Assembly: GCF_025685425.1 (NCBI RefSeq)
Contig: NZ_JAGTAS010000057.1
Span: forward strand, 124,001-188,000
Reading direction: 5' to 3'
Origin: Terriglobus albidus
GTDB lineage: Bacteria > Acidobacteriota > Terriglobia > Terriglobales > Acidobacteriaceae
Length of the DNA: 64,000 bases
Made by a program: the position numbers and the translations under genes
The notes under the pieces: model-generated
Told to the model about the DNA's origin: nothing
What the model saw: only the letters and a program-made list of their open reading frames with translations
Databases searched by the model: none
Part shown: positions 24,442 to 27,753 of the stretch, one piece after another
Position numbering within the stretch: the stretch's first letter is position 1
How the letters are laid out: each line of letters starts with the position of its first letter

Positions 24442-25041
24442 ATGTCCTCAGCCGAGATCGAGCTGAAGTTTGCTGTCCGTTCTTCGGATAAGCTCCGTGC
24501 CCAACTTCCATCTCTTGGCCTTACGCTGCTTACTCCTTGTACGCTTGAGCAGAATACCCTTTACGACACGCCAGATCGTTCGCTGCGCGAGCAAAAGCAG
24601 ATTCTCCGCATTCGCAGCTATAACGGCCGATGGACGCTAACCTACAAACGTCCTTCAGCTGATGACACCCTGCTCGACCTGCGCTTCAAACTGCGGTACG
24701 AGACGGAAACCGAGATAGCCAATGGGCCCGCTCTCGGTGAGGTCTTCGAGCACCTGGGATATCTGCCTGCCTTCCGGTACGAGAAATACCGGGAGGAATG
24801 GCTGCATACGGAGAGCGGAGGCCACGTGGTGATTGATGAGACTCCGATCGGCACCTGGGCAGAGCTGGAGGGCTCTCCCGATTGGATCGATACCATGCTC
24901 GCCGGCCTGGGGATTCCGGCAGAGGACTCAACTACGGACAGCTATGGCCGACTGTTTCTCTCATGGAAAGAACAGACCGGACATCCAGCAGAAAACCTCA
25001 CCTTTGAAGAGATTGCCCTGGATACAGTTCCGGCCCGTTAA
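24442..25041 (+). CDS. CYTH domain protein (triphosphate-processing)
   Basis: The 199-residue protein has the ExExK start (AEIELKF at 4-10) and the CYTH tunnel residues (NTLYDTPDRSLREQKQILRIRSYNGRWTLTYKRP, RYETETEI). The family includes class IV adenylate cyclases, thiamine triphosphatases and tripolyphosphatases, all binding triphosphates with divalent metal. No CHAD domain is attached. Which activity it has cannot be decided from this sequence. The neighbours (Sua5 and an exported kinase-like protein) do not help. About 270 bp of apparently non-coding sequence follows, in which I see no gene or terminator. Confidence 0.85.
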   Translation: MSSAEIELKFAVRSSDKLRAQLPSLGLTLLTPCTLEQNTLYDTPDRSLREQKQILRIRSYNGRWTLTYKRPSADDTLLDLRFKLRYETETEIANGPALGEVFEHLGYLPAFRYEKYREEWLHTESGGHVVIDETPIGTWAELEGSPDWIDTMLAGLGIPAEDSTTDSYGRLFLSWKEQTGHPAENLTFEEIALDTVPAR

Positions 25042-25311
25042 CCTCGTCCCTACTTCCATCGAAATTTCTGTTCGCGTCTGATCGTGCATGGTGGAAACCA
25101 TGGGTGGTGCCGCCCGAAGTGGTTATCCGCTGTTGCGGCCCTGCTCGCCGACTTCATGGCTTACCTTTGCATATCCACTGCTTCGGGCGCCCTTCTGGAT
25201 CATCCGCCGCTTTCGCATCGTGGTGGATGGCTGAAACGACGATGTATCACCACTTGCGCATCCAACACGTGACATGCTGCCTATCAAAGGCAGTAGCTCG
25301 TGGAGGAATTC

Positions 25312-26367
25312 TTGCCGCGTCGCCATCTCCGTTGCGCCCTGCTTCTTCTGCTTTTGTTCTCTACGGTCCCATTGCGTACGTTCGCGCAAGACGCGCCTGT
25401 TACTGCAAAAGAAGCTGACAGTAACGACAACGACGCCCTCGTCCGTCCGGAACAGATACACAACCCCATCCTCTGGCACGATCCGGGCGATATGGCCTCA
25501 CTCGATCTCTTCTTCGGACAGGGGGGAAAGAAGGGGCAGCCTGCCGCTCCGTTTACTTTTGAAAAAGAGATCCGCAGGCAGAGCACACCAAAATTTGACG
25601 CTCGTGACGCACGCGGAAAAAAGTGGCGTGTCAAGCTGGGACACGAAGCCCGGCCCGAGGTCGTATCGTCCCGCCTGCTGTGGGCAGCAGGATACTTCGC
25701 CAGCGATGACTATGTGCTTCCCTCCGCCGAAATCTCCGGCATTCACATGCATCGAGGTAAGAAATACATTCAAGGAGAACGAATCACCGACGCGCGCTTT
25801 GCCCGCAAACCTTCAGGCCAGAAGAAGGTGTATACGTGGCGCTGGAAAGAGAATCCATTTATCGGTACGCGCGAACTGAATGGCCTGCGCGTGATGATGG
25901 CCCTGCTGAATAGCTGGGACCTGAAGGACGAAAACAACGCAATTTTCTACGACGAGAAGAATGACCGGCAAATCTTTCTCATCAGCGATATAGGAACCAC
26001 CTTCGGTCGGACCGGCTTGCACTTTACTAACGGGCCATCCAAAGACAATGTGAAGGCCTATGTCGCTTCAAAATTCATCCTGCGTACGACGGAAACTACG
26101 GTTGATTTCGCAACTCCGTCGCGCACACCAAGTCTCCTTTTCGAGACGCTCGGTTTCGGGATCAAACAATATCTCCGCCGCAACGGCATGGTCTGGATCG
26201 GACGCGATATTCCTCGTCAAGATGCCCACTGGATCGGCACGTTGCTGGGACGGCTCAGCCACCGGCAACTTGTAGATGCATTCCGCGCCGGAAACTATTC
26301 ACCGGGGGAGATCGATCAGTTCGTGAAGGTTGTGGAGCAGCGTATCGCAGAGCTGAAAGCTCTGTAG
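25312..26367 (+). CDS. Exported protein with kinase-like motifs (unknown family)
   Basis: About 351 residues from a TTG at 25312 with GGAGG five bases upstream; the GTG at 25300 would leave no ribosome-binding site. There is a signal peptide (HLRCALLLLLLFSTVPLRTFAQ). The mature sequence has, in kinase-like order: KWRVKLG (Lys about 108), PEVVSSRLLWAAGY (Glu about 116), NSWDLKDENNAIF (Asp/Asn about 203-209) and FLISDIGTTFG (Asp about 226, DxG). These match the VAIK lysine, C-helix Glu, catalytic-loop D..N and DFG elements of atypical kinases such as Fam20/CotH or HipA. I did not recognise a named family. A secreted or periplasmic kinase is an inference; a degenerate pseudokinase is the alternative. 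It is monocistronic. Confidence 0.7.
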   Translation: MPRRHLRCALLLLLLFSTVPLRTFAQDAPVTAKEADSNDNDALVRPEQIHNPILWHDPGDMASLDLFFGQGGKKGQPAAPFTFEKEIRRQSTPKFDARDARGKKWRVKLGHEARPEVVSSRLLWAAGYFASDDYVLPSAEISGIHMHRGKKYIQGERITDARFARKPSGQKKVYTWRWKENPFIGTRELNGLRVMMALLNSWDLKDENNAIFYDEKNDRQIFLISDIGTTFGRTGLHFTNGPSKDNVKAYVASKFILRTTETTVDFATPSRTPSLLFETLGFGIKQYLRRNGMVWIGRDIPRQDAHWIGTLLGRLSHRQLVDAFRAGNYSPGEIDQFVKVVEQRIAELKAL

Positions 26368-26445: not shown

Positions 26446-27753
26446 ATGCGAGCTGCGCTCGAACGCTACTTTCAGTTTCATGAGCTGGGAACCGACTGGC
26501 GTACGGAGATTCTGGCCGGGGTGACTACTTTCGTCACCATGGCTTATATCATCTTCGTGAATCCGTCCATTCTGTCGCAGACCGGTATGCCCATTGCGGC
26601 GGTGACCATCGCCACATGCCTCTGCGCGGCCTTTGGTTCCATCCTGATGGGGGCTTTGGCCCGCTATCCGCTGGCGCTGGCGCCCGGTATGGGGTTGAAT
26701 GCCTATTTCACCTATACCGTCTGCCTGAAGATGCATGTGCCATGGCAGACGGCGCTTGGCGCCGTCTTTCTTTCCGGCATCATCTTTCTTCTGCTCACAC
26801 TTGGCGGCATCCGCCAGTTGCTTATCTCCGCAATTCCCCGTGAGCTTCACGCCGCCGTTGCCGGTGGAATCGGTCTGTTTATCGCGTTTATCGGGCTGCG
26901 TAATGCCGGCATTATCGTTAGTGATCCTGCAACAGCCGTCACGCTCGGCAATTTGCGCTCTCCACAAACAGCGCTCTCGCTCTTCGGTCTAATTCTGATT
27001 GCAGTGCTGCAGGTACTGCGGGTGCGTGCATCGATTCTCATCGGCATCGCCGGAACCATGCTGACTGGCTTCATCTTCCACCAGGTGCACTGGCAGCCCG
27101 GCCACGCAAGCCTTTCCGCCATTCGTCAAACGGCCCTTCATCTCGATATTCCTGGAGCATTGAAGCTTAACGCCGTCGAGATCGTCTTCGTGTTTCTTTT
27201 CGTCGATCTCTTTGACAATATCGGCACCCTCCTTGCCGTTACACAGAAGACCGGCCTTATTCCTACCTCTGGTGTGATTCCGCGGGTGCAGCGCATCTTC
27301 TTCGCCGACGCCATCTCCACCGTGGCAGGTTCGTTGGCCGGAACCTCTACCGTCTGCTCCTACATCGAATCCAGCGCGGGTGTCGCTGCCGGCGGCCGTA
27401 CCGGCATCACTGCCATTACCACCGGCCTGCTGTTTTTCGCATCCATCTTCGTCGCTCCGCTGGTTGGGGCAATCCCGGTTTCCGCGACCTCACCAGCGCT
27501 CATCATCGTCGGAGCACTCATGCTCGGCAGCATCGGAGAGCTCGACTGGCATGATCCGCTGGTTGCAATTCCGGCATTTCTCACGCTTATTACCATCCCA
27601 CTCACCTATTCCATTGCCACCGGACTAGGATTCGGTGTCATTGCTTTTGCCGCACTACGATTGTTTAGCGGTCGCGCGAAGAAGTCGGATTGGTTACTTT
27701 ACTTGCTGGCGACCGTCTTTCTGATCAGGTTTATTTATCTCGCCGCAGGTTGA
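26446..27753 (+). CDS. NCS2-family purine permease (AzgA-like)
   Basis: A 435-residue inner-membrane transporter for hypoxanthine/guanine/adenine (nucleobase-proton symport). The N-terminus has EILAGVTTFVTMAYIIFVNPSIL; LALAPGMGLNAYFTY in TM3 and FLFVDLFDNIGTLLAVTQK in TM8 are the AzgA/PbuG signatures, and GTSTVCSYIESSAGVAAGGRTG follows. About 13 hydrophobic segments are present. Exact base preference cannot be set from these motifs. Monocistronic, between the exported kinase-like protein and a small membrane protein; no purine-salvage enzyme is adjacent. Confidence 0.92.
   Translation: MRAALERYFQFHELGTDWRTEILAGVTTFVTMAYIIFVNPSILSQTGMPIAAVTIATCLCAAFGSILMGALARYPLALAPGMGLNAYFTYTVCLKMHVPWQTALGAVFLSGIIFLLLTLGGIRQLLISAIPRELHAAVAGGIGLFIAFIGLRNAGIIVSDPATAVTLGNLRSPQTALSLFGLILIAVLQVLRVRASILIGIAGTMLTGFIFHQVHWQPGHASLSAIRQTALHLDIPGALKLNAVEIVFVFLFVDLFDNIGTLLAVTQKTGLIPTSGVIPRVQRIFFADAISTVAGSLAGTSTVCSYIESSAGVAAGGRTGITAITTGLLFFASIFVAPLVGAIPVSATSPALIIVGALMLGSIGELDWHDPLVAIPAFLTLITIPLTYSIATGLGFGVIAFAALRLFSGRAKKSDWLLYLLATVFLIRFIYLAAG

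Follow-up and report, generated by a model that had tools for sequence, protein, structure and literature searches.

Does the acidobacterium Terriglobus albidus export a kinase? The question is raised by a reading frame in a 64,000-nucleotide stretch of its genome (the window), in which a first-pass annotation had noticed an exported protein with a kinase-like motif series and proposed an atypical kinase of the Fam20/CotH/HipA type. That proposal is supported by a profile link to HipA-like kinases, by conserved motif residues, by a signal peptide and by the gene neighborhoods of relatives. Judging from its sequence, the protein probably belongs to the HipA-like branch of the protein-kinase-like superfamily and acts as a kinase outside the cytoplasm.

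The gene, its export signal and its family

The frame and its immediate surroundings comprise the following features:

24442..25041, + strand: upstream gene for a CYTH-domain protein (triphosphate tunnel enzyme fold; PF01928, E = 3e-20)
25302..25307, + strand: putative Shine-Dalgarno-like GGAGGA just 5' of the TTG, read directly from the sequence
25312..26367, + strand: coding sequence for the 351-aa kinase-like exported protein (open frame, dN/dS, homologs in Acidobacteriota)
25312..25386, + strand: predicted Sec signal peptide covering residues 1-25 and cut after TFA (sequence; N-terminal hydrophobic segment in homologs)
26446..27753, + strand: downstream gene for a membrane permease, in the same position in loci L004 and L005

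The 351-residue frame opens with a TTG at 25312, and an in-frame GTG at 25300 offers an alternative start that would give 355 residues. Because GGAGGA precedes the TTG and the orthologs in L004 and L005 start at the same point, we regard 25312 as the better choice; family alignments were numbered from the GTG, and four is subtracted to give the residue numbers used here. Compared with the same two orthologs, the gene has a dN/dS of 0.15. The frame as first annotated, open and encoding an exported protein with the motif series, is thus confirmed; it is real and under purifying selection.

Residues 1 to 25 (MPRRHLRCALLLLLLFSTVPLRTFA, followed by Q) form what appears to be a classic Sec signal peptide, and an N-terminal hydrophobic segment is above the cut-off used in 50 of 52 short homologs, the remaining two falling marginally under it. 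The signal peptide first noted is thereby borne out, and export of the window protein is strongly supported by this prediction. Its sole cysteine lies within the signal peptide, leaving a mature protein without cysteine.

The CYTH gene holds the same position in L005, an arrangement kept in close relatives only, and its product scores too low for the NCBIfam class IV adenylate cyclase model. The CYTH fold includes polyphosphate and triphosphate hydrolases, and this protein is a possible, unproven functional neighbor of the kinase-like protein. The downstream permease, which by eye we take to be nucleobase-permease-like, is probably unrelated in function.

Searches of Pfam, NCBIfam and the PDB with the single protein gave no match, and no family model was matched at its cut-off. 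Scanning genome contigs revealed just three close relatives. The host genome carries a second copy (contig C28, 55% identity) that adjoins a PLD-like gene and an ABC exporter. A single-sequence search found matches in 25 of 199 Acidobacteriota genomes; a family-profile search of the phylum, a check that the first-pass annotation had suggested, found them in 75 of 297 genomes and 55 of 166 genera. Members are of two types, short exported proteins (mostly about 310-440 aa) and long proteins (480 to over 1000 aa), and comparison of the core and long types marks them clearly as one family (hhalign, P = 3e-39). No relatives appeared in three scans of viral contigs or among the plasmids scanned, and no description of the family was found in a literature search that had most subscription journals outside its reach. 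The protein belongs to an unnamed, undescribed family that is widespread in Acidobacteriota.

Two members lie side by side in L056 (the second partial), L060, L084, L116 and L184, which suggests tandem duplication. The relatives in L107, L114, L115, L121, L131 and L132 are long, at about 1000-1100 aa.

Motif residues and the profile link to HipA-like kinases

All four peptides picked out in the first-pass annotation are present in the order given, a pattern beyond chance by its invariance across 61 homologs. The residues concerned, with the family's C-terminal signature, are as follows:

25633..25635, + strand: Lys108, VAIK-type ATP-binding lysine (KWRVKLG), invariant in 61 homologs and aligned with the HipA_2 lysine
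25657..25659, + strand: Glu116, C-helix glutamate (PEVVSSRLLWAAG), with Asp in one of the 52 short members and Glu in the other 51
25918..25920, + strand: Asp203, catalytic aspartate (NSWDLKDENN), unchanged in all 52 short members and across alignment A7
25933..25938, + strand: Asn208 and Asn209, of which Asn208 is at D+5, as is the metal-binding Asn of HRDxKxxN
25987..25995, + strand: Asp226-Ile-Gly228, DxG metal-binding motif, Asp and Gly in 52 of 52 short members
26230..26289, + strand: family-specific C-terminal signature W307...RQLVDAFRA, invariant or near-invariant columns in alignment A1

Among 61 diverse members (alignment A7) the only invariant columns are Lys108, one Gly, Asp203 and Asp226, and conservation is 90% or higher for Glu116 and Gly228. 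The residues originally proposed for the active site hold up in part: Lys108, Glu116 and Asp226 stand, whereas position 206 is variable, the invariant catalytic Asp being Asp203, and the metal-binding Asn is most likely Asn208 instead of Asn209. The catalytic loop so defined is D-x(4)-N, matching the spacing of HRDxKxxN; of 52 short members, 44 have N at position 208 and the other 8 have Q, and 22 of the 25 long members have N there. Some of the long proteins (L114, L121, L132) lack the Lys or the catalytic Asp, and several such proteins may be pseudokinases.

Profile comparison with hhalign linked the 77-sequence broad family to members of Pfam HipA_2 (PF20613, HipA-like kinase) at P = 2e-7, with 1.3e-6 in a repeat of the comparison, and the long subfamily at P = 2e-9; as a yardstick, HipA_2 against HipA_C gave P = 8.6e-6. 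In a null of 150 control profiles of HipA_2 (149 column-shuffled and one reversed) the best control scored 23, against real scores of 57 for the broad family and 75 for the long subfamily. The significance of this link derives from distant members: the core family alone scored 23.4, barely above the null maximum of 22.6, so that its link taken alone is only suggestive. The family and HipA_2 align in register, Lys on Lys, Glu on Glu and DxG on IDHG. One distant long member, the best relative, matches PF20613 directly (E = 9e-4, 19 bits); at the gathering cut-off of 27 bits the window protein has no match, and no member examined reaches it.

Comparison with HipA_C (PF07804) gave a weak link (P = 0.004), CotH (PF08757) showed no significant one (P = 0.06 for the full family, 0.01 for the core), and the APH profile gave no support; Pfam found neither a CotH nor a HipA_C domain in the window protein. 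The best PDB profile match, the eukaryotic actin-fragmin kinase (1cja), aligned at Lys and the C-helix Glu and is insignificant alone (E = 0.18, and 2.1 in another search). AlphaFold models built from a 4-sequence alignment reached pLDDT 34.5 at full length and 35.0 when trimmed, and at this very low confidence the predicted order of elements (three strands, helix, later helix, loop, two strands, DxG) is compatible with a kinase. Given such a pLDDT, the case for a kinase fold comes from sequence profiles only.

The family and HipA_2 share the kinase core motif series (Lys, Glu, D-x4-N, DxG) in register. They differ in that the HipA_2 members fetched show no signal peptide by eye and in the W...QLxDAFRA tail peculiar to the studied family. 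HipA toxin kinases (PF07804) belong to the same broad clan; unlike them, the window gene has no HipB-type antitoxin gene beside it, its neighbors being the CYTH protein and the permease. Fam20C kinases are eukaryotic and disulfide-rich, in contrast to the cysteine-free mature protein studied here, and the likeness to them is drawn by analogy. It would lie in action outside the cytosol on exported substrates (for these secretory-pathway kinases, see the review PMC7948968).

A different HipA-like group (A5), tried as a relative, aligned at the catalytic loop only and not significantly. Acidobacteriota also contain a second group with HipA-like motifs (FDALIxNxDRNxxNIL...WKLWLIDHTRAF), distinct from the studied family and with an apparent signal peptide in at least some members (L047:1405-2526, L048:1345-2217, L049:1330-3030 and L050:1366-2319, all on the - strand).

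Gene neighborhoods of the family

Loci were fetched around relatives, including 53 with a short member, and a partner was defined as a recurrent gene within 3 kb. Because the partner search profiles were built from these same loci, the neighbor counts are descriptive; the DUF4956 test alone is independent. At least one recurrent partner lies within 3 kb in 33 of the 53 short-member loci, and either exported phosphatase is found in 24 of 53, across 11 taxonomic families. The partners are:

PLD-like protein: 18 of 53 loci, 9 taxonomic families
Exported metallophosphatase: 15 of 53 loci, 7 taxonomic families
DUF4956 membrane protein: 12 of 53 loci, 8 taxonomic families
ABC exporter (MsbA-like): 11 of 53 loci, 6 taxonomic families
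Exported DSP/tyrosine-type phosphatase: 9 of 53 loci, 5 taxonomic families
Small exported protein: 9 of 53 loci, 5 taxonomic families
PPK1: 4 of 53 loci, 1 taxonomic family
FHA protein: 4 of 53 loci, 2 taxonomic families

The gene order PLD-DUF4956-kinase-metallophosphatase-small protein recurs in L068 and L184, and these recurrent orders suggest operons. The small exported protein (about 195 aa), found with the kinase in nine loci (e.g. L192:5290-5862, - strand; L202:8194-8802, + strand; L203:742-1332, - strand), has a C-terminus that is weakly CigR-like, under the cut-off, and is a possible substrate or regulator of the kinase. In L194, L197 and L198, which come from one taxonomic family, the kinase has as its neighbor a large protein that combines two FHA domains with a zinc ribbon and DUF3616.

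On the gene map, neither the window locus nor its orthologs in L004-L006 have any of the relatives' recurrent partners: DUF4956, near 14 relatives, and PPK1, near 4, are both absent near the window copy. Placement of the window gene in a phosphatase/polyphosphate operon was rejected, with only the CYTH gene nearby. Since the locus lacks partner genes, the functional reading of the window gene is taken from its relatives.

A curated-family search of 294 genomes returned 52 DUF4956 and 20 VTC polyphosphate polymerase matches. For 14 of the 52 DUF4956 genes a member of the kinase family is found within 3 kb, compared to 0.11 expected under random placement; 18 DUF4956 genes lie within 4 kb of a VTC polyphosphate polymerase, and none lies near both. 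A search for CotH that covered 60 genomes placed six DUF4956 genes within 5 kb of it. This split of DUF4956 between the kinase family and VTC/CotH indicates that, in some Acidobacteriota lineages, the family stands in for CotH next to DUF4956, and the family looks like CotH's equivalent in a module for phosphorylation outside the cytoplasm. Both are atypical kinases with DUF4956 nearby, and some loci also contain a gene for polyphosphate synthesis (VTC with CotH, PPK1 with the studied family); however, their partner sets are disjoint, DUF4956 genes near VTC never being near the studied kinase. For CotH, the linkage to DUF4956 and polyphosphate genes applies to some of the family and does not define it. 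A gene set of CotH, poly-phosphate polymerase and DUF4956 has been published for streptococci, clostridia and bifidobacteria (PMC7112168). In Acidobacteriota, CotH, VTC and DUF4956 genes occur together at G028:C38, G005:C178, G005:C167, G001:C4 and G015:C18, separate from the kinase-family loci.

Candidate activities and their meaning

An exported small-molecule or lipid kinase, resembling PI3/4-kinases or AnkK/MavQ and acting on a phosphoinositide-like lipid, inositol phosphate or envelope glycan in place of protein, is a possibility of some weight, though short of probable. PLD-like proteins are the most frequent neighbors (18 loci) and 11 loci contain MsbA-like ABC exporters, which fits envelope lipids, and the exported phosphatase of the DSP type has a further match to PTPlike_phytase. 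Lipids are also the presumed substrates of Legionella kinases close to the FAM20/CotH group (PMC9758233). However, PLD-like proteins are a catch-all family, the window gene has no adjacent lipid-biosynthesis genes, and the closest profile among those compared is HipA_2, not APH or CotH.

We consider it unlikely that the kinase fold serves something other than phosphate transfer, as in a pseudokinase or an AMPylase- or glutamylase-type enzyme, like SelO or SidJ, that uses the same residues differently. Several kinase-fold families do catalyze other transfers, and motif residues have been lost in some long relatives, but Lys108, Asp203, Asp226 and Gly228 are each present in 52 of 52 short members and Glu116 in 51, a degree of conservation unusual for pseudokinases, and the phosphatase neighbors suit phosphate transfer. 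A coincidental motif order in a fold unrelated to kinases, in keeping with the lack of a curated model match and the AlphaFold pLDDT of 35, is already very unlikely, as it is precisely Lys, catalytic Asp and metal Asp that are found among the four columns invariant in 61 sequences, and none of the 150 shuffles approaches the HipA_2 profile score.

For the extracytoplasmic HipA-like kinase that we favor, we infer the activity, substrate and phosphate donor as follows. The Lys-Glu pair and two metal sites would hold Mg and a donor, either a nucleotide or another polyphosphate, and Asp203 would activate a hydroxyl on an exported protein, or on an envelope lipid or glycan; the exported phosphatases encoded beside many relatives would reverse the reaction. 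The DUF4956 membrane protein and polyphosphate enzymes may serve the same module, much as the genes for CotH, VTC polymerase and DUF4956 occur together in other bacteria. The window copy is a second member, located apart from the host's C28 copy. The periplasm is not known to contain ATP, which counts against an exported kinase. We speculate, giving the idea a low probability, that polyphosphate (PPK1; VTC in CotH loci; DUF4956 handling it at the membrane) could be the donor in an undescribed extracytoplasmic module; if true, this would solve the missing ATP outside the membrane.

Conserved kinase residues, together with relatives encoded beside exported phosphatase and polyphosphate genes, suggest that the family may form part of an extracytoplasmic phosphorylation system in Acidobacteriota, and DUF4956 gains a second, independent kinase partner. 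Extracytoplasmic kinases are familiar from animals, and bacteria have few. For the question of how phosphate donors are supplied to that space, the family and its recurrent exported phosphatase, DUF4956 and polyphosphate-enzyme neighbors provide a concrete, testable gene set.
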